In this document: positions 5,141-44,555 of the stretch, piece by piece
Position numbering within the stretch: the stretch's first letter is position 1
Layout: each line of letters begins with the position of its first letter
From: Bacteroidota bacterium
GTDB taxonomy: Bacteria; Bacteroidota; Bacteroidia; Chitinophagales; UBA2359
Assembly (NCBI GenBank): GCA_020631245.1
Contig: JAHDHP010000003.1
Location: 1-45,947, forward strand
Reading direction: 5' to 3'
DNA: 45,947 bases
Notes under the pieces: generated by a model
What the model saw: only the letters and a program-made list of their open reading frames with translations
Told to the model about the DNA's origin: nothing
Database searches by the model: none
Made by a program: the position numbers and the translations under genes

Positions 5141-5352
5141 GCGTGAGGGATAGTAGTGGTAGATTGGTGAAGTAGAAAGGTGGTGAAGCAACGCCTAGTA
5201 GGGCTGACAGCGGAAGACACTGCTAGGTGTATTTGCTGAACACCTTTTCTACGAGCCAACTACAAGCGAATAGCCCGACGCCATTTTTATGAATTTGTTT
5301 GTTCATGCGAGAACGCATGAACAAACAAATTCATAAAAATGGGGGCACGCCC
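5141..5352 (-). repeat. Hairpin-bearing intergenic repeat, copy 1
   Basis: Read on the minus strand, this copy runs from GGGCGTGCCC through a perfect 29-bp hairpin (arms 5281-5309 and 5314-5342, loop of four bases), then GGGCTATTCGCTTGTAGTT, the core hairpin around TGTCTTCCGCTGTCAGCC, and the end block TACTATCCCTCACGC. The outer core stem pairs GTAGAAA with TTTCTAC. It fills most of the gap between the acylase start and the merC-like gene end. The hairpin arm sequence is found in no other copy, while the core is shared by all seven. Confidence 0.85.
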
Positions 5353-5451
5353 AAATAAACAATGGAATAACGCGTAATATTAGGGCTACAGTGTATTTAA
5401 AAAAATATTTTCAATGAATGAGGAAGAGAAATCAATGAATGTGTAAAGTGA

Positions 5452-5844
5452 TTAGTGTTTGTGATTATGACCATGGCAATGTTTTTTGTGTAATCGCCAA
5501 TTAATGAGTTGTGCAATGGCCATTAGGCTGGTACCTAAACCAATGAGTGGGTGATTGTGTATTATAAAGGCGAGAAGGATAACAACAATGCTACTGATAT
5601 AAAGAATGGTAGGTAAATATTGTTGATGACGTAGAAAATCGTTGTATAAGGTATAACCTCCGATGATAAAAGCAATAGGTAATAAAAATACTTCGAAAAG
5701 AGGATGAGATATAAAAGGAATGCTTACAAAGGAAGCTGTGACCAATAAAAGTGGCAATAATAAACAATGAACAGCACATAGAGCTGAGAGCCAAAAACCA
5801 ATGGAATGAAGTTTGGAGGAAGATTGTTGTTGTATATTATTCAA
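5452..5844 (-). CDS. MerC-domain small membrane protein
   Basis: This 130-residue protein has four hydrophobic segments and an N-terminal SALCAVHCLLLPLL motif with the paired cysteines typical of the MerC family. The tail is histidine-rich (HKKHCHGHNHKH), suited to metal binding. MerC proteins were first described as inner-membrane mercury transporters. In Bacteroidota they often stand beside a Fur-type regulator, as here (divergent gene at 6014). The metal is therefore more likely zinc or another transition metal than mercury; this is inference, since no merA or merR is present. The spacer contains TTGCAA-type repeats that probably serve as the operator. Confidence 0.82.
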   Translation of the reverse strand: MNNIQQQSSSKLHSIGFWLSALCAVHCLLLPLLLVTASFVSIPFISHPLFEVFLLPIAFIIGGYTLYNDFLRHQQYLPTILYISSIVVILLAFIIHNHPLIGLGTSLMAIAQLINWRLHKKHCHGHNHKH

Positions 5845-5888
5845 AATAACTTTTTTATAGGTTTAAATCTTCTATAAATACTAATGTT

Positions 5889-5917
5889 AGTAGGTTGCAT
5901 TTGCAAGTAGGTTGCAA
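5889..5917. promoter_or_regulatory. Candidate Fur/Zur-type operator between the divergent merC-like and fur-like genes
   Basis: An 11-bp direct repeat, AGTAGGTTGCA, occurs at 5889-5899 and 5906-5916 (17-bp period). Overlapping it are inverted half sites: TTGCA-TT-TGCAA at 5895-5906 and TTGCAA-N5-TTGCAA at 5901-5917. Its position between a Fur-family regulator and a metal-related membrane protein suggests metal-dependent control of both genes. No binding data are available. Confidence 0.5.
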
Positions 5918-5938
5918 ATATAATAATTTCTGCTGTAT

Positions 5939-5973
5939 TTTGTAAGTCGGAAAGCTTAATTTTTATAATTTTG
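5939..5973 (+). promoter_or_regulatory. Possible Bacteroidota-type promoter for the fur-like gene
   Basis: TTTG at 5939-5942 and TAATTTTG at 5966-5973 match the TTTG / TAnnTTTG promoter of this phylum with a 23-bp spacer, at the long end of the usual range. It lies just downstream of the candidate operator and about 40 bp before the start codon. Confidence 0.35.
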
Positions 5974-6013
5974 GATAGCACAAGATTATTCCTGCTATTT
6001 ATGAATCACAACT

Positions 6014-6436
6014 ATGCAAGAACAGATTGCACATATTTTAAAACACCATCAATTGCGAGTAACTGCTTGTAGAAAGCAGGTAATCGCAGTTTTTTTAGAT
6101 AAAAGACATGCAATTGGACATTCAGAACTGGAACGACAATTGGCAGATTTTGACCGAGTTACGATTTATCGCACCTTAAATACTTTTTTGGAGAAAGGTA
6201 TTGTACACCAAGTGCCTGATGATGTGGGAGAAGCAAAGTACGCGCTTTGTTCGGATGATTGTGATGAACATGCGCATCAAGATGAACATGTTCATTTTAA
6301 ATGTTTGGAGTGTAATAAATTGACTTGTATTGCAGAAATAGCTATTCCGAATCTTACCTTACCCAAAGGCTATGTCATGAAACATGCAACTTTATTAATT
6401 AAAGGATTATGTGAAGACTGTGGAATAGCCAACTAA
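6014..6436 (+). CDS. Fur-family transcriptional regulator (Zur-like)
   Basis: This 140-residue protein has the Fur layout: an N-terminal winged helix with LRVTACRKQVIAVFL and the recognition segment FDRVTIYRTLNTFLEKGIV (about 46-64), then a metal-binding dimerisation domain. The latter shows a Cys/His-rich stretch (CSDDCDEHAHQDEHVHFKC) and two CxxC motifs: CLEC near 96-99 and CEDC near 133-136. These would form the structural zinc site. Family members repress uptake or trafficking genes when bound to Fe, Zn or Mn. The divergent MerC gene and the symmetrical TTGCAA sites suggest control of that gene and of itself. Which metal it senses cannot be read from the sequence; Zur is favoured over Fur by the neighbour. 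Confidence 0.88.
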   Translation: MQEQIAHILKHHQLRVTACRKQVIAVFLDKRHAIGHSELERQLADFDRVTIYRTLNTFLEKGIVHQVPDDVGEAKYALCSDDCDEHAHQDEHVHFKCLECNKLTCIAEIAIPNLTLPKGYVMKHATLLIKGLCEDCGIAN

Positions 6437-6479
6437 TTTTAACTATTGAAATCACATCATTTAATTTAGATATATTACC

Positions 6480-7010
6480 ATGAGAAAATTATTATTCGTA
6501 GGACTGGTTTGTAGTGTGTTATTTGCTTGCGACACAGGCGATAAAAAAGCGAGCAAGTCTGATGACACAAAAGCAAAAACCGAAACGAAAGCAGAAAAAG
6601 CAGCTCCTGCTGCCTCTTCTGGTTTTGTATCCCCTCGTCCTCAATTGGCACAAGTACTAGCTAAAGCTAATAAGGTAGAGTATTTATTATATAACTTGGG
6701 CATGACCTTTGAATCGCCATCTGAAACAGAAGCGCAGCGTTTTTATGGGTATTTGCTGGATCAAGAAGCAGATTTGACCAATTGTAAGGGGAGCAATTAT
6801 GATGGAAGTATCACTTTTAAAAATGATGAAGGAGATATTGTTTTTGGGATGGAGTTTAATTTACCTCAATTGTCAAATTGTAATCGAGTTGTGTTTGATT
6901 TAGATGGTAAGAAATACCAATTACCTTATAACGAACAAGGAATCAATTTTTACAACCAAGTATTACAATTGCGTCCTCAACCTGGACAAGCTCCACCACA
7001 AGGGCAATAA
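6480..7010 (+). CDS. Lipoprotein of unknown function
   Basis: The product has 176 residues. The N-terminus MRKLLFVGLVCSVLFAC is a lipoprotein signal with Cys17 lipidated. A linker rich in Lys, Ala, Thr and Asp (about 20-48) leads to a compact domain of about 115 residues containing two cysteines and ending in a Pro/Gln-rich tail (QLRPQPGQAPPQGQ). I recognise no family. It begins 43 bp after the fur-like gene on the same strand, so co-transcription is possible. A strong hairpin terminator follows at 7153-7194. Confidence 0.72.
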   Translation: MRKLLFVGLVCSVLFACDTGDKKASKSDDTKAKTETKAEKAAPAASSGFVSPRPQLAQVLAKANKVEYLLYNLGMTFESPSETEAQRFYGYLLDQEADLTNCKGSNYDGSITFKNDEGDIVFGMEFNLPQLSNCNRVVFDLDGKKYQLPYNEQGINFYNQVLQLRPQPGQAPPQGQ

Positions 7011-7027
7011 TTCTTTGAGTTATAAAA

Positions 7028-7132
7028 TGAACCACATAAGTTATAAAAGAGGTGAATCTCAAAGGAATCAGGGAACAAGAGTTAGCCTCTTAGCCCATTT
7101 GAAGTAAAAAACTTATTTTCCTTATGTGGTTT
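7028..7132. repeat. Short element bounded by inverted ACCACATAAG / CTTATGTGGT ends
   Basis: The left end AACCACATAAG (about 7028) is the reverse complement of the right end CTTATGTGGTT (about 7122). The roughly 105 bp segment holds no gene and contains a second short inverted pair, GAGTTAGCCTCTT. An element with similar ends lies at 16683-16862. Such CACATAAG motifs are, as far as I recall, widespread in Bacteroidota intergenic DNA. Confidence 0.5.
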
Positions 7133-7152
7133 TTATGCAATGATTATTGAAC

Positions 7153-7194
7153 AAAAAAAATCCCCACTCAAATTAATGAGTGGGGATTTTTTTA
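7153..7194. terminator. Bidirectional intrinsic terminator
   Basis: The stem AAAATCCCCACTCA pairs with TGAGTGGGGATTTT around a short AATTAA loop, with an A run on the left and a T run on the right. It lies between the convergent lipoprotein gene (ends 7010) and gldJ (ends 7215) and can serve both. Confidence 0.88.
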
Positions 7195-7214
7195 TTAGTA
7201 TTACTTAGCGATTC

Positions 7215-8708
7215 TTAGAATTTCTTAGAACGCTTAGCGGCTTTTGTTGCTTTATTTTGCTTAGGAGCTTTGGCTTTTTTACCATCTGGGCTACCTACAC
7301 GAATCATTGCACAACGGAAACCAACAGTAGAAGATCCTTGATCTTCATCCATATAGCGACGAGTACCTGGTGATAAGTAGTAAGGAGGGTCTTGCCAAGA
7401 ACCACCTTTGATTACTCTCGACTTATCACTAATAAGTGTCGTAGAATCAGAACGGTAAATAACACCAGACTCTTCATCACCATCACGGTAACTTCTTACA
7501 TCAGACTTACGAATATTGGTACGATTTCCAATTTCGTCAGCTTGTAATTCACGATACTTGATACGACCTAAACTATCTTTAGGAGCAACTCCTCCAGAAG
7601 CATCCGTTTCACGTACTTTGAAAACATTACCACGGAATGGGTTAAAGTCTTCCGCATCCATAGTCGTCATTGGACGATATACATCCAATACCCACTCACT
7701 TACATTACCTGCCATATTATAAAGCCCAAAATCATTAGGTACAAAAGTACGTACAGGAGCCGTAATTTCTGCTTGGTCATTCAATTTACCAGCAATACCC
7801 ATATAGTCACCACGTCCACGCTTATAGTTAGCTAACATGTTACCATGTTCCTTACCATGACGTTGTTGACGCATATTAGAACCTTCCCACGGATAGATTT
7901 TTCGATTCATAAATCGCTCTTCATCTTCCGACTCACTGATAATAGCTAATGCGGCATATTCCCATTCTGCTTCCGTAGGCAAACGGTAGTCTGGCAATAA
8001 GATACCATCATCAAAGCGTACATTACGTGTTTCTTCTTCACTATTAGGATCTAAGTTTTTCACTCCTTTTTTCACGACCCCTTGATACTGACCCAATAAG
8101 AAAGATTCTGTATTGAAGTGTTCTGCACCATATTGGTTAGGATCTTGCTCTAAGATACCCTCTTTCATCAACATCATCTCGTTTACACGATCCGAACGCC
8201 AACGGCAATATTCATTAGCTTGTTGCCAAGTAACTCCTACTACAGGATAGTCATTATAAGCAGGGTGACGGAAATAATATTTCACATAAGGCTCATTGTA
8301 CGCCAACTCTTCCAACCATACTAAGGTATCAGGAAGTGCTTTATATACCAGTTCAGGATAAGTTTCACCGAAAATACGGCCCATCCAGTAAAGATATTCG
8401 CGATAGTGTACATTGGTTACCTCTGTTTCATCCATATAAAAGGAAGAAACCGTTACACGACGTGGAATATTGTGATACTCAAAAAGTACATCCTCATCTA
8501 CATTACCCATTACAAAAGTACCCCCAGGTATCAAAACTAATCCAGGACCTGTTTTTTGTTCCTTTTCTTTGGCTACTGTAAAACCACCCCAATCTTTATC
8601 GTTGTAGTTCCACCCAGTAGCAGAAGAAGATTCTTTATTACAAGAGGACATGGCTGCCACTCCAGCTACAAGGAGTAATAATAGCGTTAACTTTGCTAAA
8701 TTTTTCAT
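7215..8708 (-). CDS. gldJ: Gliding motility / type IX secretion lipoprotein GldJ
   Basis: This 497-residue protein has a lipoprotein signal ending in SSC (Cys23), then TGWNYNDKDWGGF, a signature of GldJ. The rest is a formylglycine-generating-enzyme-like (SUMF1) fold: GLVLIPGGTFVMGNVDED (about 55-72), EVTNVHYREYL, YRLPTEAEWEYAA, GNVSEWVLDVY and GGSWQDPPYYLSPGTRRYM. The paired catalytic cysteines of true formylglycine-generating enzymes are absent from the GGSW segment, so a structural role is expected. In Flavobacterium, GldJ is an outer-membrane lipoprotein needed for T9SS stability and gliding. The C-terminus is a lysine-rich tail. It follows the porP/sprF homologue by 135 bp on the same strand. 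PorK/GldK is the alternative, but gldL and gldM do not follow. Confidence 0.85.
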   Translation of the reverse strand: MKNLAKLTLLLLLVAGVAAMSSCNKESSSATGWNYNDKDWGGFTVAKEKEQKTGPGLVLIPGGTFVMGNVDEDVLFEYHNIPRRVTVSSFYMDETEVTNVHYREYLYWMGRIFGETYPELVYKALPDTLVWLEELAYNEPYVKYYFRHPAYNDYPVVGVTWQQANEYCRWRSDRVNEMMLMKEGILEQDPNQYGAEHFNTESFLLGQYQGVVKKGVKNLDPNSEEETRNVRFDDGILLPDYRLPTEAEWEYAALAIISESEDEERFMNRKIYPWEGSNMRQQRHGKEHGNMLANYKRGRGDYMGIAGKLNDQAEITAPVRTFVPNDFGLYNMAGNVSEWVLDVYRPMTTMDAEDFNPFRGNVFKVRETDASGGVAPKDSLGRIKYRELQADEIGNRTNIRKSDVRSYRDGDEESGVIYRSDSTTLISDKSRVIKGGSWQDPPYYLSPGTRRYMDEDQGSSTVGFRCAMIRVGSPDGKKAKAPKQNKATKAAKRSKKF

Positions 8709-8843
8709 TAGTCTATTGTCTTTATGCTAAAATATTAAAAATAAAATCAAAATGATTGTGCGGGAAAGATCGTTACAGGAAAATAACGAGAGCGACACAA
8801 AATTAGTATAAATAACTGAGTTTTTTTAAACCTCTATGCAACC

Positions 8844-9848
8844 CTACTCAAAAATTTCGGGACATTTACTGTCAGCATTTACTTTTTTGCGTTTTTTAGC
8901 CCAATAAGTTTGTCCAAAATCGAAAGTCATAGATACCTCGTGTGCATTGGCATTTACGCCCAAACTACCCAGTCGATAATCATAACTATATCCAAATCGG
9001 AAAACACCCGCTTTTACACCCGCCATAAAAATAAGCGCGTCCATATTATTAAATGTATGTCGTGCCCACACACCACCAAACAAAGCTCCTTTTCCTAAAT
9101 AAGCACCTGCATTGATTTGATTGACAGGCCCTTGATTCACAAACAATACATTTGGGCTAATATAAAATCGTTTGAATCCACGTCGTGGTTTGGACGTATA
9201 AAATACATAACCCAAATGAAAAGCACTTCGTACATGTAAACTATTTTCAGGATCTTCGGCTGTTGTAAAACTTACACTAGGTCGAGTAATATGCTTAAAG
9301 GATGCACCAATATACAATTGATCGGTATAAGCAACCATCCCTAGTCCCAAATCCAGTCGATGAATGTTATTCGTTTCTTGCAAACCCGCAAAACTACCTG
9401 GAATAATATCGCCAGTGGTGTCATCAATCATATCAGGAAGTACCACTTTATCCCAATTTAGATTTTTTTGGAGGTAACTCACCTGTGCGCCTGCTTTCAA
9501 CAATAATTTATCATTCAACTGCAATTGGTAGGCATACTGACCCGATACCAAATACGTATTATAGATACCCCCAGCACGATCTGCAAGAACAGAAAGCCCA
9601 AAACTACTGTTTAATTCTTCAAAATGCTGATCGTAGGCAATACCCATAGTCAACCAAGCATTATTAAAGGAAGGATACTGATGGCGATAGTTAACCGTCA
9701 CGCGTGGTTCGGATGTAAAACCAATCATTGACGGGTTTAAATGATAGGGAGCTGTATAAAATTGGCTAAATTCTGGATCTTGTGTCCAACCTTTTTTGAC
9801 CAAACAACAACTAACTATTAAAAATAGTATTAGACATTTCGTTTTCAT
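8844..9848 (-). CDS. Type IX secretion system membrane protein, PorP/SprF family
   Basis: This 334-residue protein has a signal peptide (cleavage near TQD, residue 23) and the family's opening QDPEFSQFYTAPYHLNPSMIG (about 23-43). It continues as alternating beta strands, ending in VSMTFDFGQTYW, as in outer-membrane barrels. PorP/SprF proteins sit in the outer membrane, bind PorE-type periplasmic partners and serve as anchors or exit points for specific T9SS substrates. It lies upstream of gldJ on the same strand and is probably transcribed with it. Bacteroidota genomes carry many PorP/SprF paralogues, so I give no single gene symbol; the gldJ neighbour suggests a core role. Confidence 0.88.
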   Translation of the reverse strand: MKTKCLILFLIVSCCLVKKGWTQDPEFSQFYTAPYHLNPSMIGFTSEPRVTVNYRHQYPSFNNAWLTMGIAYDQHFEELNSSFGLSVLADRAGGIYNTYLVSGQYAYQLQLNDKLLLKAGAQVSYLQKNLNWDKVVLPDMIDDTTGDIIPGSFAGLQETNNIHRLDLGLGMVAYTDQLYIGASFKHITRPSVSFTTAEDPENSLHVRSAFHLGYVFYTSKPRRGFKRFYISPNVLFVNQGPVNQINAGAYLGKGALFGGVWARHTFNNMDALIFMAGVKAGVFRFGYSYDYRLGSLGVNANAHEVSMTFDFGQTYWAKKRKKVNADSKCPEIFE

Positions 9849-10031
9849 AAGACATTCGTCTGGGTATGAGGAAAAATTTTGGCAAATTTACCAAAATCTT
9901 TCAGGGGACAATAAGGGAGGGAATAAAAGACTAATGACCCTACCCTATTTTTGATAGTTCGAGTCAAAAAACATTCCAGAGACTAACGGGTTTTGACTAA
10001 GTATTATTGTAACAAAGATTAATTAGTTTTG

Positions 10032-10228
10032 GGGCGTGTCTTTTTCTTTTCGTTCTTGTTCATGCATGAACAAGAACGAAAAGAAAAAGACCAGGCTATC
10101 CGCTTGTAGTTTTCTCGTAGAAAAGGTGTTCGGCAAATACACCTAGCAGTGTCTTCCGCTGTCAGCCCTGCTAGGTGTTGCCTCTCTACCCTTCTACTTC
10201 GCCAAGCTACCGCTACTATCCTTCACGC
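10032..10228 (+). repeat. Hairpin-bearing intergenic repeat, copy 2
   Basis: It begins GGGCGTGTC and carries a perfect 27-bp palindrome without a loop (10038-10064 with 10065-10091). The base pairs at its foot are GTCT/AGAC instead of the GCCC/GGG pairing in most other copies, a compensatory change. Then come GGCTATCCGCTTGTAGTT, the core stem CCTAGCAG (10142-10149) with CTGCTAGG (10168-10175), the outer stem GTAGAA/TTCTAC, and the end block CTACTATCCTTCACGC. It lies between the divergent porP/sprF and porU genes. It is followed by a degenerate GAATGA-rich tract (about 10234-10272) and by TGTGTTAATCCGTGTAATCG (10297-10316). Confidence 0.87.
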
Positions 10229-10391
10229 AAAAACAATGACTGAATGTGTGAATGAGCGAATGACTGAATAAGTACTACGTTATTTTTTATAGAATCTGTG
10301 TTAATCCGTGTAATCGGTGGTTAACTAATTTGTCATCAAAAAGATAGCAAGTCTACTTCATATATATTATAATATCCTGTTTTGAAATATC

Positions 10392-13300
10392 ATGCAAATA
10401 AAATCACCCACTATGCATAAGCGAATAACCAAGAGTTTTATCTGTTTATTAATCTGCTTATTTCACTTGAGTAGTGTATGGGCACAAAGTCAAAAAAATA
10501 TCCAATTAAATTGGACAGATGATACGCGCCAAGTATGGATTGGTAATAATCAGTTTGCAGAAAGTCCCACTTTTAAGGAGTCGAAGTTTATCCCTTCAGA
10601 GCACCCATTTCCTATTTATACCCAACAAATCCCCTTGAATAAAGGTGGTGACTTAGCCGTAAAGATCGAAAATGCACAATTTGAAGTACTAGAGCTAAGT
10701 GATGTGCTTCAACAAAAAGCAGAGGGTTTTTTGACTAATGAAGTGATATTACAAAAGGAGTTAATTAACATCCAAAAGCGACCTTTTGCCCAAATCAGTA
10801 TTGTACCTCTTCGTTATAATACACAAGGACAGCTAGAGCGATTGGTATCATTTGATATGGATATACAAGTCAAACCTTTTAAGAATAATCGAGCGTTGGC
10901 AAAGTCAGGTTCTAATGAGTATGTCAATAACTCTATCCTCAATCAAGGTGCTTTTTATAAATTTCGAACCAGTGAGGAAGGTATTCATCGAATAGATGCT
11001 TCTTTTTTGGAGGCTTTGGGAATTAATGAAACGGTTTCGATTAACAATATCCGCATTTATGGAAATGGTGGAGGTACCTTAGATGAAAAGGCAGGTCATA
11101 ATTACGTGGATGATGTCTTAGAAAATGCCATAGAAGTGGTTGATCAAAATAATAATGGCAATTTTGATGGGAATGATTACCTCTTATTTTATGCACAAGC
11201 TCCTCACCAATGGAAATGGAACGAGCAAAATAAACGCTATGAATTTAAACGACACTTTTATAGTGATTATACCCACTACTTTTTCAACTACGATATTGGG
11301 GCAGGTAAACGAATTGAAACCATCAATCCTAGTGGACAAGCCACTGATATAGTAGATAGCTTTGATGATTATGCGATTCATGAAACAGAAACATGGAACT
11401 TAGGCGAAAGTGGACGTCGCTGGTATGGAGAGGTGTTCGATATTGTATTGACACAAGATTTACCCACCTTCAATTTTCCAAACATTGTTCCGAATAGTGA
11501 TATTACGATGGAAGGACGTTTTGCTGCAAAAGCGATTTATAATAGAAGTCGTTTTCAAGTAACAGTGAATGGGGAGCGTTTTAATTCGAGCTTTATAAAT
11601 ACAGTAGGGGCAAGTTTTGAAGATCCTAAAGCCCGTTCCACCTTATTAGTAGAAACAGTACCTGCATCGAGTGATAGAGTGCCTGTAACAGTTAACTTTG
11701 AAAAGAGTGATGCGACTGCTGAAGGTTGGTTGGATTATATTGCGCTGAATGCTCGCCGCCAACTACAATTTACAGGTGGTCAGATGTCTTTTAGAGATGC
11801 TTTATCCGTAGGAGAGAATAAACAAAGTGAGTTTAGAGTAGGAAATGCGAGTAATGCAACTATTTGGGAAATAACAAATCCTACCGAAGTACGACAAATA
11901 CAAACGGAAACAAATGGCAATACTGATGTTTTTAGCCTTCCCACGTCTACTCTACGCCAATTCATAGCTTTTGATGGTAGCCAGTATTTTAAGCCAGAAG
12001 CTATTGGCGAAATCGCTAGTCAGAATCTACACGAACTGACCTTTCCTGATATGTTGATTATCACACCCAATCAATTTTTAGGAGCGTCGGAACGCTTAGC
12101 TGATTATCGGCGTCAAAATGATGGTTTAGAGGTATTAGTAGCAGACCTCGATCATATTTATAATGAGTTTTCTTCTGGTACACCTGACTTGACAGCTATT
12201 CGAAATTTTGTGAAAATGTTTTACGATCGTGCAGAGGAGGATATTAATAAAATGCCACGTTTCCTTTTACTCATGGGAGACGCTTCTTATGATTATAAAA
12301 ATTTGGGCAAACATACCGAAGATGCGAACATTATTCCTACCTATCAAAGTATGGAATCGGTATTGACAATTCAAACTTTCTGTACCGATGACTATTACGC
12401 TTTATTAGATGATGATGAAGGGGTGAATATGAATTTTTCAAACCTAGGATTGGATATTGCTATGGGAAGATTACCTGTTAGCACAGTCGAAGAAGCCGAA
12501 TTGTTGGTTGATAAAATTATTCGTTACAATTCGAAGGAAGCATTAGGAGCTTGGCGAAATGATATAGCCTTTGTAGCAGATGATGAAGATGGAAACTTAC
12601 ATTTTCGTCAAGCAGAGCGACATGCTAATCGAATAGATACGGAAAATGAAGCGTATAATTTATACAAAATTTATTGTGATGCGTATCCACAATTGGCAAC
12701 TCCTTCAGGAGGGCGTTATCCAGATGTAAATGAAGCAATACAAAATCGTATTTTCTCAGGTAGTTTAATAATGAATTATGTAGGACATGGCGGGCCAACA
12801 GGTTGGGCAGAAGAGACTATTTTGAGTCAGACGGAGATACAAAAATGGGAGAACAAAAACCAAATGCCTTTATTTATTACAGCAACCTGTAGTTTTAGTA
12901 AATATGATGACCCAGAAGAAACATCGGCAGGGGAGTTATTGATATTAAAACCTGATGGTGGGGCTGGTGCTATCGTAACCACTGTACGTTTGGTGTTGGC
13001 TGGTGATAACTATGATATGAATAAAGCCTTTTTAGATCGACTCTTTAAATATGCTAACCCAACTACGGGTCGAATGCCACGCTTGGGAGAAGCGATGCGA
13101 ATAGCAAAAAATGATGCAGCACATACGAGTATCAATAATCGTAAATTTACTTTATTAGGTGATCCCGCCATGCGTTTAGCTTATCCTGAACACCGAGTGG
13201 TAACTACAAGTATAAAGCGAGTCGATGCATCGAATGAGGAGGTAGATACCATACAGGCTCTAACCACAGTAGAGATTTCAGGAGAGATCGTTGATTTTAA

Positions 13301-14273: not shown

Positions 14274-14290
14274 TTGTGCGAAGTGCGATG

Positions 14291-14390: not shown

Positions 14391-14447
14391 TTAGAAATTA
14401 ATAAAAGCTTTTATAAGAGCTAAATAGTCAAGAATAACTAAAAATGG

Positions 14448-15830: not shown

Positions 15831-15858
15831 AAAACAATAATAATCTAATGAATTAATA

Positions 15859-20396: not shown

Positions 20397-20595
20397 GGGC
20401 GTGCCCAATATGCAAAAAGCGCAATAACCGAAAACGGTTATTGCGCTTTTTGCATATTGGTCGGGCTATTCGTTTGTAGTTGTCTTGTAGCAGCTAGTTC
20501 GGCTAATGTCCTAGCGGTGTCTTCCGCTGTCAGCCCCGCTAGGTCAAGCCTCTCAAGGCTGCTACTTCACCAAGCTACCACTGCTATCCCTCACG
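20397..20595 (+). repeat. Hairpin-bearing intergenic repeat, copy 3
   Basis: It begins GGGCGTGCCC and has a perfect 26-bp hairpin (20405-20430 with 20435-20460, loop AAAA). It continues GGGCTATTCGTTTGTAGTT. The outer core stem is GTAGCAGC/GCTGCTAC where other copies have GTAGAA/TTCTAC. The inner stem is CCTAGCGG/CCGCTAGG where others have CCTAGCAG/CTGCTAGG. Both are double compensatory changes. The end block is CTGCTATCCCTCACG. It lies in a convergent gap. Confidence 0.87.
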
Positions 20596-20603
20596 AAAAA
20601 CAA

Positions 20604-20676
20604 TGATTGGATGACGGGTTGACTGCATGATTGGGTGTGCGTTACACTATATCCAATCATGCAGTCATCCAATCAT
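20604..20676. repeat. Long hairpin downstream of repeat copy 3
   Basis: GACTGCATGATTGG (20621-20634) is the exact reverse complement of 20653-20666. Outside it, GATTGGATGAC (about 20605-20615) pairs with the stretch following 20664. The structure lies between convergent genes and may stop transcription from either side, although there is no T run. Confidence 0.55.
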
Positions 20677-24697: not shown

Positions 24698-24909
24698 GCG
24701 TGAGGGATAGTAGCGGTAGCTTGGCGAAGTAGAAACTTAGAGAGGCTTGGACTAGCAGGGCTGACGAAGGAAGACACTGCTAGGACTTTAGCCGAACTTG
24801 TTTTCTAAGAGGCAACTACAAGCGGATAGCCCGACCCTATTTTTGCCAATCGAAACCTGTCAGCTTGGAAAAACCTAACAGCTTGATTGGCAAAAATAGG
24901 GGCACGCCC
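24698..24909 (-). repeat. Hairpin-bearing intergenic repeat, copy 4
   Basis: On the minus strand it begins GGGCGTGCCC and has a perfect 17-bp outer stem (24835-24851 with 24885-24901). The 33-base loop itself contains a diverged direct repeat (AACCTGTCAGCTTG and AACCTAACAGCTTG). Then follow GGGCTATCCGCTTGTAGTT, the outer core stem TAGAAAAC/GTTTCTA, the inner stem CTAGCAG/CTGCTAG, and TACTATCCCTCACGC. It lies between the cyclase-like gene and htpG, both on the minus strand. The remaining gap (24910-25046) shows nothing. Confidence 0.85.
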
Positions 24910-29836: not shown

Positions 29837-29874
29837 AAAAACCGCCACAACAAATTTTTGTTGTGGCGGTTTTG
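29837..29874 (-). terminator. Intrinsic terminator after the tRNA gene
   Basis: CCGCCACAACAAA pairs with TTTGTTGTGGCGG, with T runs on the minus strand (GTTTTTCTTTTC) and a shorter one on the plus strand. It begins three bases from the encoded CCA end of the tRNA. Confidence 0.85.
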
Positions 29875-30799: not shown

Positions 30800-31004
30800 G
30801 CGCAAGGGATAGGAACGGTAGCTTGGCAAAGTAGAAACTTTGTGAAGCTTCGACTAGCAGGGCTGACAACGGAAGACACTGCTAGACGAGTAGCTGAACT
30901 AGTTTTCTACAAGGCAACTACAAGTGGATAGCCCGACCCTTTCTCCCCTTGTATAGTTTATGTGTCTTCGCATAAACTATACAAGGGGAGAAAGGGATGC
31001 GCCC
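30800..31004 (-). repeat. Hairpin-bearing intergenic repeat, copy 5
   Basis: On the minus strand it begins GGGCGCATCCC and has a perfect 26-bp hairpin (30937-30962 with 30971-30996, loop of eight). It continues GGGCTATCCACTTGTAGTT, the outer stem GTAGAAAAC/GTTTCTAC, the inner stem CTAGCAG/CTGCTAG and CCTATCCCTTGCGC. The first motif GGGCGCATCCC, also seen in copy 7, and the last motif TTGCGC differ together from the GGGCGTG / TCACGC pair of the other copies. It lies between divergent genes. A spurious ORF at 30707-30931 overlaps it. Confidence 0.86.
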
Positions 31005-33171: not shown

Positions 33172-33180
33172 AGATTGATT

Positions 33181-35801: not shown

Positions 35802-35833
35802 TCTAAAACGCTGATTTTGTGATGAAAAAGTCA

Positions 35834-35879
35834 TATATTTGCAATACTTGTTTAAACACTAATTTCACTGTTTAAACAA
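35834..35879 (+). promoter_or_regulatory. TATATTTG element followed by a GTTTAAAC inverted repeat
   Basis: TATATTTG (35834-35841) fits the -7 promoter element. A perfect 11-bp inverted repeat, TTGTTTAAACA (35848-35858) and TGTTTAAACAA (35869-35879), lies at the likely transcript start. No T run follows, so it is not a classic terminator; it may be a regulatory site or the 5' hairpin of the next gene's leader. Confidence 0.35.
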
Positions 35880-36033
35880 ACGTTCAACATTTTGGTATTT
35901 GGTGTAGTAAGTTGATAAATACTTACTGCACCTTTCTTTTTTTAGGTGCTACATTTCCCATTCGAACCAATCACGCCAACCAAGTGTTTTTAGCACATAC
36001 CATCATTCCTTATTCGTTTTTATTCATCATTAC

Positions 36034-36447: not shown

Positions 36448-36459
36448 AGTTAATTTGTT

Positions 36460-36693
36460 GGGCGTGCCCTTTCATAGTGATCGAGTGGTTGGGGACATAC
36501 GTACAGACAAGGCATGGCCTTGTCTTCAATCACACAACCACTCAATCACTATTACAGGTCAGGCTATCCGCTTGTAGTTGTCTCACACCCACTTGTTCCG
36601 CATAGTCCTAGCAGTGTCTTCCGCTGTCAGCCCTGCTAGTCCTTGCTTCACAAAGTAGCTGTTTCGTCAAGCTACCGCTACTATCCTTCACGC
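36460..36693 (+). repeat. Hairpin-bearing intergenic repeat, copy 6 (with a nested palindrome)
   Basis: It starts GGGCGTGCCC. The hairpin stem is 18 bp with one mismatch (36474-36491 with 36535-36552), and its 43-base loop contains the 21-bp palindrome AGACAAGGC-ATG-GCCTTGTCT (36505-36525). Then follow GGCTATCCGCTTGTAGTT, the inner core stem CCTAGCAG/CTGCTAG and CTACTATCCTTCACGC. The outer core stem is not evident in this copy. A degenerate GAATGA-rich tract follows (about 36700-36735). The rest of the gap to 36912 holds short hairpins (TTCAGC..GCTGAA near 36776) but no gene. Confidence 0.83.
36505..36525. repeat. Perfect 21-bp palindrome nested in repeat copy 6
   Basis: AGACAAGGC pairs with GCCTTGTCT around ATG. 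It belongs to the same palindrome type as 1697-1712 and 5118-5135, here sitting inside the loop of the copy 6 hairpin. Confidence 0.65.
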
Positions 36694-36912
36694 AAAACAA
36701 TGACTGAATTAGTGAATGAGCGAATGCCTGAATGGGCGTTACGCATTATTTTCTAGTTGCCGTCAACGACAAGTTTCAGCGGTTAGCTGAAGAACAATAT
36801 ATTTAATTATAGATGTTTTTTTCTTAAACACTTAGCTTCTACAAATGTATATCGCGAAAACGATGAAATGTGTGACGTTCAATCGTTTCATCGTTTTTCG
36901 TTCCATCGTAAA

Positions 36913-36947
36913 AAACAAAAAGCCGTAACCCTTACGGGCTACGGCTT
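36913..36947 (-). terminator. Intrinsic terminator after the coiled-coil gene
   Basis: On the minus strand AGCCGTAGCCCG pairs with GGGTTACGGCT around a short loop, followed by TTTTTGTTTTTT. It lies about 45 bp past the stop codon at 36992. Confidence 0.88.
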
Positions 36948-36991
36948 GCAAACACAATAATAGCTTTCAAAGACCTAATATGGTTAGTTAA

Positions 36992-39900
36992 CTATTTTTT
37001 CTTTTTCGCCTTAAAAAACTCTCTGGCTTGTTTCACCCACTCATCGCGTTTTACACGTCCAGGGAAAAACTCAATCGCCTCATTAACCTTCAACTCATCA
37101 TCGGCGGTAAATTTCGAAATCTGCTCGAACGTATAGATACCCAAAGCATTCAGTTTATCCTCGATATAAGGACCAATACCATTGATATCTTGTAGGTTAT
37201 CTTTATCTAGTTCAGAAGCAAAACCAATACGTCCAAAATCAATATCACCTGCTTTTTCCTGAATACGTTTAAGTGCTTCCGCTTGCTTCTGACTCTTTGC
37301 ACCTTTCTTAGCATTCGCCATAAAGCCTCTTGCTTGTTTCACCCACTGATCTCGCTTAATACGTCCAGAGAAGAATTCAATCGCATCATTCACTTTATCT
37401 TCATCCTCTGAATCGAAATTGGCGATTTGACGGAAGGTAAATATGTCAATAGTATTGAGTTTGCGCTCAATGAAAGCACCAATACCTTTAATTCTCTGTA
37501 AATCATCTTTTTCTCCTGCATTAGCAGTACCAATACGTCCAAAGTTAATAGATGATTTCTTCGATTTAATACGATTCAGTACCACATTATCTTCGCTGTC
37601 AATATCCTGACCCATTAATTTCTTTGCTTGACGTGCCCACTCATCGCGGCTAATACGTCCAGGGAAGAATTCAATCGCATCATTTACCATTTCCTCATCT
37701 TCCTCATTAAAGTTGGCAATTTGACGGAAGGTATAAATGTCAACTGCATTCAGTTTACGTTCAATGAATGGACCAATTCCCTTGATTTTTTGTAAATCAT
37801 CTTTCTCTCCTGCCTTTACCTTACCAATTCGATTAAAGTTGATATTCTTGGCTTTTTCTCTTACTCTTCTTAGAGCTTCAGCTTCCTTATCATTTACTTT
37901 AATACCTAATATTTCACGAGCTTGTCTCACCCATTCGTCGCGTTTTACACGCCCAGGGAAGAACTCAATGGCATCATTTACTTTATCCTCCATATCACCT
38001 TCTAAGTTGGCAATTTGGCGGAATTGGTAAATACCTACTGCATTCAGTTTTTCTTCAATGAATGGACCGATACCCTTAATGCGTTTTAGATCATCTTTTT
38101 CTTCTGCTTTGGCTACACCAATCTTCGCAAAATCAAGGCTCTTAGCTTTTTCACGCACTCTTCTCAACGCATCCTCTTTTTCCGCTAATTTTGATTTTGC
38201 TTTTTCTTCTGCTGCTTTCAAAGCAGAAATGCGATCTCCCATTTTGTCTTTTGCACTTTCGAGATTTTCCAACTCACCTTTTAAGTTTCCTAATTTACCT
38301 TTTGCAGCTTCTAACTCTTTTAACAAAGCGTTATACTTGGCTAGTAAATCATTGTACTCTGCTTTTGCAGCTCTTTTAGCAGCAGTATTATTGTCACGTT
38401 CACCAGATAAACTAGCAATTAGATTGGCATTGGCATCTTGTAATTCTTTTACTCGACGACCATGTGCATCAACTGTTTTAGCTAAGCCATCATATTGTCC
38501 TTTCAAATCTCCATACTCTGCTTTTGCAGCTCTCAATGCATTAGCACTATTATCTCTTTCTTTGGAAAGACTAGCAATGAGGTTGGCATTAGCATCTTGT
38601 AGTTCTTTCACTCGACGTCCATGCGCATCAACTGTTTTAGCTAAACCATTATACTGACCTTTCAAATCACCATATTCAGCTTTTGCAGCTCTTAAAGCAT
38701 TAGCACTATTATCTCTTTCTTTAGAGAGACTAGCAATGAGGTTTGCATTCGCATCTTGTAATTCAGCTACTTTGCGACCTTGTGCCTCAGAGGATTTTAC
38801 CAATCCATTATATTGAGAGTTTAAGCCATCGAAATCACCTCTCAACCCTAATAAGCTTGCATTAGTTGCTTCTTTCTCTGCGTTTAATGCATCGAATTTA
38901 GCGAGTAAGTCAGCATATGCTTTATCAGCTTCTGCTTTTTCTTCTTCGTTTATTTCTTTTTGTAAGGTAAGTGCATCACTCAGTTCCCCTTTCTTCACTT
39001 CAAGTGCTTTGAGTTGCGCTTCCATTTCAGAACGAGCAGCTAGTAAGTCTTCATATTGTTTACGTAAGCTTGCTAAGTTACCTTCTAAGTTTGCTTTCTC
39101 TTCTGCAGCAATTTCTTTTTGTACTTCAAGCTCTTCTTCTAGGCGAATACGTCCTGATTCTAGCCCTGCAATGCGGGCACTATTTTCATCACGAGTAATA
39201 CTTAGATCTGCATTTTTGCTCTTCAAGTCAGCAATCAAGGCTTCAAGTTCGCTAACTTTACGTTTGTTTTCTTCGGCTTTACTTCTTAAGTCAGCAATTA
39301 AGGCTTCAAGCTCACTAACTTTACGTTTATTTTCTTCGGCTGCAGCATTCAATTTGTCATAGCGTTCTTGTAAGCCAGCCAATAACGTTTCTAAACCAGC
39401 TTTTTCTTCCGCAGCAATTTCTTTTTGTAAGGTCAATTCATCTTTTAATTCACCATTTGCCGCTTCTAAAGCAACAATTCGTAAGCCTCCAGCTTCCTCT
39501 TTAGCTTGTAAATCACCAAATTGGAGATTCAAGCTATCAAGAGATTGTCCTAATTTGTTTTTCTCTTCTCCTAGAGTCGCTATTTTTTGATTAGCTGCTT
39601 CATTAGCAGCAGCTAAAGCATCATATTTCTTTTGAAGATCCCCTAAAGCTGCTTCTAAACGAGCTTTATCTTCTACTGCGATTTCTTTTTGTAAAGTCAA
39701 ATCATCAGATAATAGACCATTCATATCTTGTAGTTCTACCAAACGTAGACTGGTTCCCTCTCTAGCATCGAGGAGCGTATCATAGTTGACTTGTAAATCA
39801 ACTAATCTAGCACTACTTTCTTCACGAGCCGCAAGTAAAGCATCGTATTTGGCTTGTAAATCAGATAATAAACCATCTAAACGAGCCTTTTCTTCCGCAG

Positions 39901-41356
39901 CAATTTCTTTTTGTAAAGCTAAGTCATCTGATAAGTTACCATTGATATTTTGTAGTTCTACTAAGCGCAAACTAGTACCTTCTCTAGCATCAAGTAAAGA
40001 ATCATAATTAACTTGTAGATCAACTAATCGAGCACTACTTTCTTCACGAGCCGCAAGTAAAGCATCGTATTTGGCTTGTAAATCAGATAATAAACCATCT
40101 AAACGAGCCTTTTCTTCCGCAGCAATTTCTTTTTGTAAAGCTAAATCATCTGATAATCCCTCATTCAAATTCTGTAGTTCAACGATACGAGCACTACTTT
40201 CTTCACGTGCGGCTACTAATGCATCATATTGTTTTCTTAAGTCTGCTAACTCCGCATTCAAACGATCTCTTTCTGCACTTGCATCGGCTTTCAATGCTGC
40301 TAATGCTGCTTCTAGTTCGGCAATTTGTGCATCGCCAGCACTACTTTTAGATTGTAAGTCATCAAAGTTACCTTGTAATAAGGATAATTGGTTGGCAGAA
40401 TCTGTTTTGAAACTATCAAAGTTTAAGTTCAGTTGATTCTTTTCCTCTGTAAGATTATTAATCAATCCACTTCTATTTTCTAACTCTCCTTCGGCCTCTT
40501 CTAATTTTAATAAAAGTAAACGATATCGCTCATCAGCATCAGCTTTCGCTTGGTTGGCATTTGCATTTGCATCTTCTAAGTCTTTTCCTAATGTTCTAAT
40601 AGTAGCCTCAAGTCCATCAATTTTATCACCTTTTGCATTGGCATCCAATTGTAAGGTATCAAAGTTACCTTGTAAGGATAATAATTGATCTGCTTTTGCT
40701 TGTAAATCATTAGCTGATTGAGCTTGTAAATCGGCTAGTTCTTGTTGTAGCTTAGCTAATAAAGCTTCTAATTCAGCAATACGTGCATCCTTTTCAGCAG
40801 TAAGTTGTTTTTCTTTATCTAATTCAGCTTTAAGAGCCTCAATTTGTGCATTTAAGTCTGCTCTTAATTTATCGAGTTCTGCTTTTAAACCTGCATTATC
40901 TTTCTTCAGACGTTCTATCGTATTATCGCTTTCTTTTTTGGCAGCGACTAAACTTTCATAATCTGTTTTTAATTTTGCATAGTTTCCTTTCCAGTCATCT
41001 AATTCCGTTTGAGCAGAACGTTTATAGTTTTCAAAAGATATATTTAAGGCATCTCTGTCAGCGACTAATTGATTATGGTCAGCAGTCAGCCCATTATATT
41101 TAGAGTATATACCATCATATTCTAGTTGAAGTGCATCACGATCACCTTTAAGACTTAGGTGTTTGTTTTCTAGTGAGCTAAAATTATTGACAGATAAATC
41201 GTAGTCACCTTGTAATTTATTATAAGCATTTAGTTGATTATCATAATCGCCTTTTAGACGACGCCATTTTGAGTTCCAAATGATCCAGCCGATCCAAAGT
41301 CCGAGGAGTGCACCCAAGAGAGGCAACAACCAAGGAAGAATATAACACCACGACAT
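36992..41356 (-). CDS. Membrane-anchored giant coiled-coil protein with four C-terminal helix-hairpin-helix modules
   Basis: The product has 1454 residues. One N-terminal transmembrane segment (about 5-28, ILPWLLPLLGALLGLWIGWI) is followed by basic residues (SKWRRLK), so by the positive-inside rule the bulk is probably cytoplasmic. Residues about 35-1100 are almost unbroken coiled coil, including near-identical internal repeats of about 74 and 53 residues. The last 350 residues carry four copies of a module of about 85 residues, each with a KGIGPFIE..LNA.GIYTFRQIA core (helix-hairpin-helix, GIG) and FFPGR..RDEWV.QAR. Such motifs bind DNA without sequence preference in other proteins. It follows the OmpA-fold gene by 74 bp, evidently one operon. 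A structural or tethering role is inferred; the function is unknown. Confidence 0.82.
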   Translation of the reverse strand: MSWCYILPWLLPLLGALLGLWIGWIIWNSKWRRLKGDYDNQLNAYNKLQGDYDLSVNNFSSLENKHLSLKGDRDALQLEYDGIYSKYNGLTADHNQLVADRDALNISFENYKRSAQTELDDWKGNYAKLKTDYESLVAAKKESDNTIERLKKDNAGLKAELDKLRADLNAQIEALKAELDKEKQLTAEKDARIAELEALLAKLQQELADLQAQSANDLQAKADQLLSLQGNFDTLQLDANAKGDKIDGLEATIRTLGKDLEDANANANQAKADADERYRLLLLKLEEAEGELENRSGLINNLTEEKNQLNLNFDSFKTDSANQLSLLQGNFDDLQSKSSAGDAQIAELEAALAALKADASAERDRLNAELADLRKQYDALVAAREESSARIVELQNLNEGLSDDLALQKEIAAEEKARLDGLLSDLQAKYDALLAAREESSARLVDLQVNYDSLLDAREGTSLRLVELQNINGNLSDDLALQKEIAAEEKARLDGLLSDLQAKYDALLAAREESSARLVDLQVNYDTLLDAREGTSLRLVELQDMNGLLSDDLTLQKEIAVEDKARLEAALGDLQKKYDALAAANEAANQKIATLGEEKNKLGQSLDSLNLQFGDLQAKEEAGGLRIVALEAANGELKDELTLQKEIAAEEKAGLETLLAGLQERYDKLNAAAEENKRKVSELEALIADLRSKAEENKRKVSELEALIADLKSKNADLSITRDENSARIAGLESGRIRLEEELEVQKEIAAEEKANLEGNLASLRKQYEDLLAARSEMEAQLKALEVKKGELSDALTLQKEINEEEKAEADKAYADLLAKFDALNAEKEATNASLLGLRGDFDGLNSQYNGLVKSSEAQGRKVAELQDANANLIASLSKERDNSANALRAAKAEYGDLKGQYNGLAKTVDAHGRRVKELQDANANLIASLSKERDNSANALRAAKAEYGDLKGQYDGLAKTVDAHGRRVKELQDANANLIASLSGERDNNTAAKRAAKAEYNDLLAKYNALLKELEAAKGKLGNLKGELENLESAKDKMGDRISALKAAEEKAKSKLAEKEDALRRVREKAKSLDFAKIGVAKAEEKDDLKRIKGIGPFIEEKLNAVGIYQFRQIANLEGDMEDKVNDAIEFFPGRVKRDEWVRQAREILGIKVNDKEAEALRRVREKAKNINFNRIGKVKAGEKDDLQKIKGIGPFIERKLNAVDIYTFRQIANFNEEDEEMVNDAIEFFPGRISRDEWARQAKKLMGQDIDSEDNVVLNRIKSKKSSINFGRIGTANAGEKDDLQRIKGIGAFIERKLNTIDIFTFRQIANFDSEDEDKVNDAIEFFSGRIKRDQWVKQARGFMANAKKGAKSQKQAEALKRIQEKAGDIDFGRIGFASELDKDNLQDINGIGPYIEDKLNALGIYTFEQISKFTADDELKVNEAIEFFPGRVKRDEWVKQAREFFKAKKKK

Positions 41357-41430
41357 ATAAAGAATATTTATTAGGATTAAAGAATATTGTTTTGTCTGTT
41401 GAACAGGAGAATAAATATATTATTGAAAGG

Positions 41431-42750
41431 CTATTTCACAACCCTCACTTCTACTCGTCTATTTTTAGCTCTACCAGCGTCGGTATTATTGTCAGCAATT
41501 GGCTTTACTTCTCCTTCTGAGTTAGATCGGATTTTTTGACCATTTACTCCATTCCGCACTAAATAACTTTTTGCAAAATCAGCTCTACCTTGTCCTAGCT
41601 GTTTGTTTTTGGCAGCATCTCCGACATTATCTGTGTGCCCTGTTGCTTGAATTTTAGCACTCGGTACTTTTTCGATATACTCGATCATTTGTGTAAACTT
41701 CTTCTGCTGAGCACCTGTTAGGTTGAGGTTACTAGCGTTGGTTTGGAAGTTTAGGATAATTGGTTCTACGACTAATTTTTCCAATTCTTTCAAACGTTGA
41801 TCATCAGCTCCTTTATTGGCAACAGGCATAGCACTAAAACGGTAATTTATACCTCCTTTCATGGCATCATCAGTAAAGACTAGATTATCTAATTTTTGAT
41901 CTTTTACTATAATCTGATTCGTCTTAGCTCCCATTCTTACTAGTTGGCTTTTTACATTGTTTCCTCTTGCCAAACCTAGTGTTTCATAGATACTCTTATT
42001 AGCTTCATCGCCTTTATATAAACCTGTTACCGTTAATAGTCTTTCTGGATTATTGTTCAGATAGCTTACTACTTCTTGGTATGATTTATTGACTGGAGCA
42101 GGAATCGGTTTTTCAAACTCGAAAGAAGATTTCTTAAAGGTAAGGTTATCGGCTGCATTGGTATTGAACTTTGCAGCATCAGCAATGACTAAGCGAGCAG
42201 ATGGTGCAGCTGCTGGAGCAGGTTTGCCTGCAAATCCGAACTTAACTCCATCATATAATAGCTTATCTGGAAAGTCTAAATTGTTGTTTAAAAGTTCTTT
42301 CGTATTAATTTGATCAGCAGTAGCACCTAGAGCTACTAACTTATCTTTAATAGCATTGGCACGAGCCAGTCCTAAGTTTGGAAATTGCCCTTGATACTTT
42401 TCACTAGCAGCATATAATCCAGTAACGGTTAATATTCGACCTGGATTTCCTTTTAGGTAAGTAGCTAATTTAGAAAAAGCATCATTAGTAGGTTGCGGGA
42501 TATTGGGTCGAAAACCATCTTGGGGAAAGGTAAAGTTGTCATCCGAGCTTGCAATTATTGATTTATCCCTAATTACTAATGGATTAATCTGGTTGGCAGT
42601 AGTAGCAGTGACCGCAGCGGTGGTGGTAGCGGCAGTGGCGGCTCCAGAAGAACCTGCTGCTACAACTCCACAACACTGGGTAATCCATAACCACGTACCA
42701 ACTACAATTAATGCAATTAGTAGTAGAATGGGTAACCATATGTTCCTCAT
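41431..42750 (-). CDS. Membrane-anchored protein with three tandem OmpA-fold domains
   Basis: The product has 439 residues. An N-terminal transmembrane segment (about 4-24) is followed by two Cys and an Ala/Thr-rich linker (about 30-55). Two diverged repeats of about 120 residues follow (about 70-180 and 200-310), each with LTVTGLY, a LGLAR helix and a D.L.F end, as in degenerate OmpA C-terminal domains. The last domain (about 328-439) is a standard OmpA/Pal-like one: ILNFQTNASNLN, ATGHTDNVGDAAKN and AGRAKNRRVEVRVV, with the Asp and Arg that bind meso-diaminopimelate of peptidoglycan. It therefore probably links a membrane to the cell wall. It is the first gene of the operon with the coiled-coil protein. 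Confidence 0.85.
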   Translation of the reverse strand: MRNIWLPILLLIALIVVGTWLWITQCCGVVAAGSSGAATAATTTAAVTATTANQINPLVIRDKSIIASSDDNFTFPQDGFRPNIPQPTNDAFSKLATYLKGNPGRILTVTGLYAASEKYQGQFPNLGLARANAIKDKLVALGATADQINTKELLNNNLDFPDKLLYDGVKFGFAGKPAPAAAPSARLVIADAAKFNTNAADNLTFKKSSFEFEKPIPAPVNKSYQEVVSYLNNNPERLLTVTGLYKGDEANKSIYETLGLARGNNVKSQLVRMGAKTNQIIVKDQKLDNLVFTDDAMKGGINYRFSAMPVANKGADDQRLKELEKLVVEPIILNFQTNASNLNLTGAQQKKFTQMIEYIEKVPSAKIQATGHTDNVGDAAKNKQLGQGRADFAKSYLVRNGVNGQKIRSNSEGEVKPIADNNTDAGRAKNRRVEVRVVK

Positions 42751-43171
42751 TGAAATACTATTTGAAAGGTTTGCAAAAAAATGGAAAAGCCAAATAAATG
42801 GATAGAAAGAGACAGTGTTTATAATCTGTTTAGTAGGACGAGGTGATTATTGATGCGTCACGAAAAGGTAATCACTGTTCTACGTGCAAATATCAAATAT
42901 GCGAAATAGATAAACTATATCAAGCTATTTCATAGTAGGTTCGGTTGGTAGATCTTTTATCACAAAGTGTGCACTTTTTTTAAAAAAAATATCACCTTTA
43001 GATTTTATCGAAGCAACCTAAAAATAAATGGAGATAAACACATACAAATACCTATGTGAGATGTACACTTACTACTTCAAGTAGCACACTTAAATAAAGC
43101 TCCTTTATTTGAGTTGATAGATCACATACATTTGGCAATAATTCAATCACAAATAATTAAAACCATTTGTT
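42751..43171. other. Intergenic gap without recognised gene
   Basis: This 421-bp gap separates the divergent OmpA-fold and TonB-like genes and must hold promoters for both. I see no long ORF, RNA gene, repeat copy or convincing hairpin in it; it is AT-rich throughout. Confidence 0.5.
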
Positions 43172-44302
43172 ATGATGTATTTATTGCTTTTTATATTAAG
43201 TCCATTTTTACTGGCAGGTATTTTTAAGCTCTATTTCTATTGGCAATCAGCCGATCGCATTCAGCGGAAGTACATAGGAAAAACTATGCCGATTAATGTA
43301 AAAAAATATCCAGAGGTTGATACTGATCGATTGCGAAGTGTTTTTTTGAAAATAGGCTTATTGATAGGTATTTCCTTCACCCTATTTGCATTTAATTTTA
43401 AAGGGTGGGGTAGTACAAAACGAGTTGTTAATTTTGAAGATAAACCATTTGAAAATGTAGAAGAAATACCGCCTATCACTTACGCACCTAAACCACCACC
43501 TCCGCTGCCACCACCGCCCAAACTCGAAATAATGGATGATCTTACTGAAATTCTCGAAGAACCACCAATTATTGAGTTAGAGGAGGAAATTGTAGAAATA
43601 CCTGTTGAAGACCCTGCTCCTATTACAGAAAACCTACCTGTAAAGGAGGTGCTTCCACCACCAACCGTGAAATTAGTTACAAGCCCTACTAAACTATTAT
43701 TACCACCTAAGCCCATAAAACCAACGCCACCTCCTGCTGCTCCTAAACCAGTAGTGAAAAAGCCACCATTGCCACCACCACCTCCTCCACCACCTCCACC
43801 ACCTCCTCCGCCGCCTCCACCACCACCTCCGCCAACTCCCAAAATGACAGACTTGGCACCTAAGTTACCACCACCACCTCCAACTATTATGGAGGATATG
43901 AAAGATATAGATGATGATATGGATGAAGCATTAGCAACCGATGAACCTATTGAAGAGGAGAAAAAGCCAGTAGAGCCAGACGTATTTCGATTTGTGGAGA
44001 AAATGCCTTCTTTTCCAGGTGGAGATGAAGCTTTGAGACATTTTTTGAGAAAACATACAAGCTATCCTGCTTTTGCTAGAGAAAATGGTATCGAAGCGAC
44101 TATTGGAGTTACCTTTATTGTGACTGAAACTGGAGAGATTGAAGGTGTAGAGGTAATTCGTCCAAATAAACGCACGAAATTACTGGAAGAGGAAGCACTA
44201 CGTGTAATGAAAAAAATGCCTAAGTGGAAACCTGGTAAGCAACGAGATAAAGCTGTAAAAGTATATTATACGCTTCCTTTCTCCTTTAAGCTCAAAAGTT
44301 AA
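43172..44302 (+). CDS. TonB-like energy transducer with a 21-proline run
   Basis: The product has 376 residues. Two hydrophobic segments (about 2-20 and 60-78) precede a proline-rich periplasmic spacer of about 175 residues, which includes 21 consecutive prolines (201-221) and several shorter runs mixed with acidic stretches. The TonB C-terminal domain (about 272-376) has FRFVEKMPSFPGGDEALRHF, YPAFARENGIEATIGVTFIV and ALRVMKKMPKWKPGKQ, the usual Bacteroidota pattern. It should pass energy from an ExbB/ExbD motor to outer-membrane TonB-dependent receptors. The two N-terminal helices are more than the single anchor of classical TonB. No exbB, exbD or receptor gene is adjacent. Confidence 0.9.
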   Translation: MMYLLLFILSPFLLAGIFKLYFYWQSADRIQRKYIGKTMPINVKKYPEVDTDRLRSVFLKIGLLIGISFTLFAFNFKGWGSTKRVVNFEDKPFENVEEIPPITYAPKPPPPLPPPPKLEIMDDLTEILEEPPIIELEEEIVEIPVEDPAPITENLPVKEVLPPPTVKLVTSPTKLLLPPKPIKPTPPPAAPKPVVKKPPLPPPPPPPPPPPPPPPPPPPPPTPKMTDLAPKLPPPPPTIMEDMKDIDDDMDEALATDEPIEEEKKPVEPDVFRFVEKMPSFPGGDEALRHFLRKHTSYPAFARENGIEATIGVTFIVTETGEIEGVEVIRPNKRTKLLEEEALRVMKKMPKWKPGKQRDKAVKVYYTLPFSFKLKS

Positions 44303-44352
44303 GAGATGACATAATCTATTGTTTTTATACCGTATCAATAATTGATTCATTT

Positions 44353-44555
44353 GGGCGCATCCCTTTACAACAAATGCCCGCTTTTACTAGAACGTAAAAG
44401 CGGGCATTTGTTGTAAAGGGTCAGGCTATCCGTTTGTAGTTGGCTCGTATCCACCTGTTCCACCAAGTACTGGCAGTGTCTTCCGCTGTCAGCCCTGCCA
44501 GTACAGGTGTCACTAGGCGGTTACTTCTCCAAGCTACCACTACTATCCTTTGCGC
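44353..44555 (+). repeat. Hairpin-bearing intergenic repeat, copy 7
   Basis: It starts GGGCGCATCCC and has a perfect 27-bp hairpin (44361-44387 with 44394-44420, loop of six). It continues GGCTATCCGTTTGTAGTT. The inner core stem TACTGGCAG/CTGCCAGTA differs from TAGCAG/CTGCTA in other copies by a paired A-T to G-C exchange. The end block is CTACTATCCTTTGCGC. As in copy 5, GGGCGCATCCC at the start goes with TTGCGC at the end. It lies between two plus-strand genes. Confidence 0.87.

Follow-up and report, generated by a model that had tools for sequence, protein, structure and literature searches.

REP elements are structured intergenic repeats that occur in hundreds of copies without target duplications, and the retron msr-msd RNA joins a closing stem to a long hypervariable hairpin. 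Flavo-1 (RF01705), a multi-copy motif of the Bacteroidota, was published as a candidate RNA that is not cis-regulatory (Weinberg et al, 2010; PMC2864571). In Flavobacterium psychrophilum its matches lie sense or antisense to transcribed regions indifferently, and many lie outside them (PMC9723704), a placement that weakens the case for a cis role at the RNA level. Here we describe an intergenic element that, as judged from covariance-model matches, is an enlarged, hyper-amplified relative of Flavo-1.

Results

Architecture and copies of the element

The window, that is, the whole stretch of DNA analysed (45,947 nt of contig JAHDHP010000003.1), contains seven copies of the element. Single-strand folding predicted for these copies gives a Y-shaped structure composed of a closing stem (P1), a long core arm and a variable hairpin (P2). 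Read 5′→3′ on the folding strand, the order is one half of P1, the core arm (about 139 nt, P1 half included), P2 and the second half of P1, with the two P1 halves about 200 nt apart. The copies are located as follows.

Copy 1: 5141..5352, + (folding strand); core 5141-5280, P2 5281-5342
Copy 2: 10032..10228, - (folding strand); core 10089-10228, P2 10038-10091
Copy 3: 20397..20596, - (folding strand); core 20459-20596, P2 20405-20460
Copy 4: 24698..24909, + (folding strand); core 24698-24836, P2 24835-24901
Copy 5: 30800..31004, + (folding strand); core 30800-30938, P2 30937-30996
Copy 6: 36460..36693, - (folding strand); core 36557-36693, P2 about 36474-36552
Copy 7: 44353..44555, - (folding strand); core 44419-44555, P2 44361-44420; P1 allele GCGCA/TGCGC

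A first-pass annotation had proposed seven copies at these places, and a covariance model trained on 39 diverse copies confirmed them, scoring each at 140-154 bits (all intact) and finding no eighth copy in the window. Six of the hairpins had been described as perfect, which they are: the perfect P2 arms measure 29, 25, 26, 17, 26 and 27 bp (27 bp also for copy 2 if its ATGCAT tip is paired), and in copy 6, at 36460, P2 pairs imperfectly and its loop encloses a GTACAGACAAGGCATG.. palindrome. Nine perfect inverted repeats in the window have arms of 14 bp or more, and six of them are hairpins of element copies. Two ordinary perfect hairpins that do not belong to the element (7154-7193 and 29838-29873) are probably intrinsic terminators. 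Next to copies or nested in them are small palindromes of the type GTAGAGAC..GTCTNTAC, as at 5111-5140 and in the P2 loop of copy 6, and tails such as AACAATGACTGAATG.. follow several copies (10229-10270 and 20596-20667), with a 15-bp perfect hairpin among these tails at 20620-20667.

P1 is a 5-bp stem whose 5′ half reads GCGTG, GCGCA or GCGTA and whose 3′ half reads CACGC, TGCGC or TACGC. Among copies with a cleanly read 3′ end, the combinations GCGTG/CACGC, GCGCA/TGCGC and GCGTA/TACGC were counted 170, 19 and 5 times, respectively, and crossed combinations never. In another genus P1 is far more variable, and there a matching partner is present in 26 of 29 copies. The core arm, which has internal loops rich in purines (AGCGGA type) and, at its apex, a GGCUGA..GGAAGAC motif, shows compensatory changes in 24 of its 32 pairs. 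P2 stems range from 3-4 bp to 39 bp; in this hairpin the letters are free and the length tolerant while pairing is kept, which shows that structure outweighs sequence.

Wobble pairs were used to assign the folding strand. When 129 aligned cores were folded both ways, the ratio of G.U to A.C pairs was 133:24 on the strand opposite to that given by the first-pass annotation, and reversed on the other. P2 stems were located by a finder that accepts only Watson-Crick pairs and is therefore strand-neutral; here, 143 of 209 mismatches are G.U on the same strand as the core and 21 on the other (p 1.7e-23, related copies not being independent). The Flavo-1 model also matches window copies on this folding strand. 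The G.U excess indicates that the opposite strand is probably the one that folds, and that the earlier strand assignment is probably wrong in this respect. The asymmetry, part of which could also arise from a strand bias in C-to-T mutation, shows the folding strand and is compatible with both RNA and single-stranded DNA. Together with the covariation in the core and P1, it supports a structured RNA as a possible role, one of those suggested at the outset; the element would work once folded as a single strand, which is most likely RNA.

Abundance, completeness and gene context

The window belongs to a 4.4-Mb draft genome that is 78% complete (G000), and the sole congeneric genome searched was G001. 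A 32-nt core pattern with at most three mismatches gave 421 matches in G000 and none for the reversed control; a 20-nt core pattern at the same tolerance gave 506 matches in G000 and 372 in G001. The expectation of hundreds of copies was thus borne out, with about 500 in G000 (roughly one per 6-9 kb) and about 370 in G001. Searching with the covariance model, as had been proposed, yielded further copies in G000 and in other genera, including 135 matches in 0.83 Mb of G000, or about one per 6 kb in a sample chosen partly for its copies. All partial matches among the 135 lie at contig ends or at the ends of the retrieved DNA, and a profile search found 182 full cores and three with an internal truncation, all in G000 and none in G001. 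About a quarter of copies lie close to contig ends. The element is dispersed and, away from contig ends, nearly always complete, unlike decaying transposons.

Copies occupy convergent, divergent and co-directional gaps alike, and the neighbouring genes are functionally unrelated (penicillin amidase, PorP/SprF, C25 peptidase and Hsp90), in agreement with the initial view that the element is not tied to one gene type. Convergent gaps are mildly enriched (42/164 versus 177/1026, p 0.013), and where neighbours are co-directional, the folding strand tends to be the one opposite to them (59:34). Linkage to gene type or strand was rejected, these biases being weak only.

Relationship to Flavo-1

At the gathering threshold, Rfam returned only a tRNA; Flavo-1 had no matches in G000 at E 0.001, and a literature search on the motif letters and on repeats of this kind found no description. 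Scored against two window copies, Flavo-1 gave 18.2 and 14.1 bits, below its Rfam gathering cut-off of 42 bits. Of 120 genomes of the order, 33 are matched by a window-derived model. Full-length copies are numerous in several genera, one 98%-complete genome from another genus yields 123 matches, and the Y architecture recurs in other genera with different P2 hairpins. A window-derived model (R1) matches G040:C186:4185-4320 (E 9.7e-8) and G040:C17:11300-11434 (E 1.1e-4), the same two loci at which Flavo-1 scores above its cut-off (49 and 50 bits), and also the sub-cut-off Flavo-1 loci G037:C9 and G049:C4 (E about 8e-9). Because both models match common loci in other genera, the element is homologous to Flavo-1. 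The GGGC..GGGCTNTCCGC sequences that the first-pass annotation mentioned for other Bacteroidota exist, and they overlap Flavo-1. Flavo-1 covers the core arm only and the window copies score below the cut-off, which makes the element an enlarged relative.

Both possess, on the same strand, a core arm whose purine-rich internal loops are similar. They differ in that Flavo-1 models only a core arm of 76 positions and lacks P1 and P2, whereas the element described here has covarying P1 and P2, an extra apical stem and a very high copy number. Single near-typical copies were also seen on short contigs of other genera (G004:C400:32-170, G006:C423 and G006:C504); these are probably misbinned contigs of the window's genus or a recent transfer.

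Position and the assortment of core and P2

In 13 gaps a recognisable copy is present in both G000 and G001, and orientation is the same in all 13; three gaps are occupied in G000 only and two in G001 only. For the window, copy 1 has a counterpart at the same place in G001, and the counterpart of copy 3 carries a P2 from the same family. At copy 4 both borders are conserved, the P2 hairpins of the two genomes belong to one family and show paired changes, and the core is of a different subtype. Copy 5 is missing from the syntenic G001 gap (328 versus 47 bp). A comparison of orthologous loci had been suggested as a way to find insertion borders. Occupied and empty gaps were found, but precise borders were not obtained from exact empty sites, G001 intergenic DNA being too diverged.

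In these comparisons, which are small (11-13 places), the core of a same-place counterpart ranks at random among all copies (mean 0.48, p 0.40), whereas its P2 ranks low (mean 0.25, p 0.0018). Many copies keep their place and orientation between the two congeneric genomes, and the core resembles its counterpart no more than it resembles any other copy. Copies with cores at least 90% identical share P2 no more than unrelated copies do, and within genomes cores up to 99% identical stand next to unrelated P2 hairpins and flanks. Core subtypes are scattered over many places, and ten copies (L033, L036, L037, L040, L049, L054, L063, L069, L074 and L078) have one derived palindrome at the same point of the core and different P2. 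Because counterpart cores rank randomly while P2 ranks low, and similar cores carry unrelated P2, core and P2 seem to assort independently, which suggests core exchange between loci. The main alternative is that the apparent exchange could be partly an artefact of repeat assembly.

At one place where G000 has a single copy (L087:8176-8314), G001 has two inverted copies that flank an AlwI-type endonuclease and an N6/N4 methylase, which form a restriction-modification pair (L135:7492-10682), as if the copies were recombination points.

Maintenance of pairing in P2

No arm sequence is shared between any two of the seven window copies, as the first-pass annotation had stated; this does not extend to the genome, where arms form recurring families and only 20 of 209 copies of the two genomes lack a 14-mer in common with another copy. 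Among 66 independent nearest P2 pairs, there were 126 complementary double changes and 89 single changes, 45 of the latter to or from G.U, whereas about 24 doubles of any kind would be expected had the arms changed independently. Arms also change in concert at orthologous loci, a check that had been called for: five same-place G000/G001 pairs with alignable stems show 26 compensated doubles versus 4 singles. One and the same wobble is maintained throughout a P2 family. The hairpin modules are mostly restricted to elements, and their interpretation as independent repeats was rejected on that ground.

The initial proposal that one arm must be copied onto the other, or the hairpin newly made at each insertion, is not supported, given 143 G.U versus 21 A.C and P2 families that keep their likeness to place. 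Compensatory evolution of the folded strand, as read from these substitution patterns, accounts for the P2 wobble bias. Since half of the paired changes are transversions (70/126 complementary doubles), template switching may make an occasional minor contribution; at quasipalindromes it is an established process (PMC7202029, PMC8604942).

Discussion

We consider it fairly probable that the element is a dispersed structured relative of Flavo-1 that acts as a folded single strand, most likely a read-through RNA, and that is retained while its cores are exchanged. According to this model, transcription through the gap on the folding strand would yield an RNA with the Y-shaped fold, in which the core would be a putative binding site of a conserved factor and P2 and P1 would clamp the fold. 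Ectopic recombination or gene conversion would exchange cores among copies, and the near absence of fragments suggests that selection retains the element at most places. Read-through transcripts might then be affected by a REP-like block to exonucleases or polymerase, the least certain step and a doubtful one. The presence of copies in divergent gaps counts against an explanation by read-through RNA. A more specific version, in which some 500 host-retained RNA elements have a core kept alike by exchange and a P2 that serves as a place-bound, structurally constrained tag, is offered tentatively.

Spread as a non-autonomous mobile element, with a transposase or polymerase supplied in trans that reads the hairpin of a folded single strand, would fit the roughly 500 copies, the core subtypes found at many places, the three G000-only and two G001-only places and the lack of target duplications, which Y1-type elements share (flank similarity was 2.91 versus 2.95 in shuffled partners). 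We regard it as unlikely, in that P2 is not copied together with the core, fragments are nearly absent and counterparts keep the same orientation in 13/13 cases. As to enzymes, among draft genomes Y1 transposase (PF01797) was absent from G001, G007 and G014 and gave one weak 27-bit match in G000, and RVT_1 was absent from the copy-rich G005 and G007, with one match in G000, on a contig other than the window's, for about 500 copies. Dependence on either enzyme was therefore rejected, as were a MITE or DDE-type transposon, there being no target-site duplication, and carriage by phages or plasmids, neither collection giving a match. A simple mobile-element role, which had been among the first suggestions, fails on several of these points. 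The element resembles REP/BIME sequences with RAYT in being structured, intergenic, repeated hundreds of times and free of target duplications, but it shows no dependence on Y1 transposase in element-rich genomes and has a much larger branched, covarying fold; it resembles the retron msr-msd in its closing stem and long hypervariable hairpin, but the element-rich G005 and G007 have no RVT_1 match.

A chromosomal site acting at the DNA level, in recombination, replication or nucleoid organisation, with the folding strand exposed as single-stranded DNA and the palindrome kept by template switching, is quite improbable. The wobble asymmetry would suit it too, template switching at quasipalindromes is known and transversions account for half of the paired changes in P2, and both the apparent core exchange and the restriction-modification pair gained between inverted G001 copies point to recombination at copies. 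However, pure arm copying would be strand-symmetric and would erase wobbles, whereas one wobble is retained by an entire P2 family, and the core has typical RNA-like covarying stems and invariant loops. That the hairpins are ordinary intrinsic terminators of neighbouring genes beside an unrelated core, an objection foreseen by the first-pass annotation, is very improbable indeed: despite the enrichment in convergent gaps, copies are also present in divergent ones, P2 is enclosed by a closing stem that covaries across it, and a T-run before and an A-run after the element leave no T-run after the hairpin on either strand, on which ground an intrinsic terminator was rejected.

Since 2010 Rfam has listed Flavo-1 with no function, and a flavobacterial transcriptome shed no light on its role (PMC9723704). 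On the reading that we prefer, a retained structured relative of Flavo-1, that motif would be one arm of a larger Y-shaped element with hundreds of intact, position-conserved copies. These copies would form a natural data set for studying the way in which long hairpins maintain their pairing and would allow tests of a benefit to the host.
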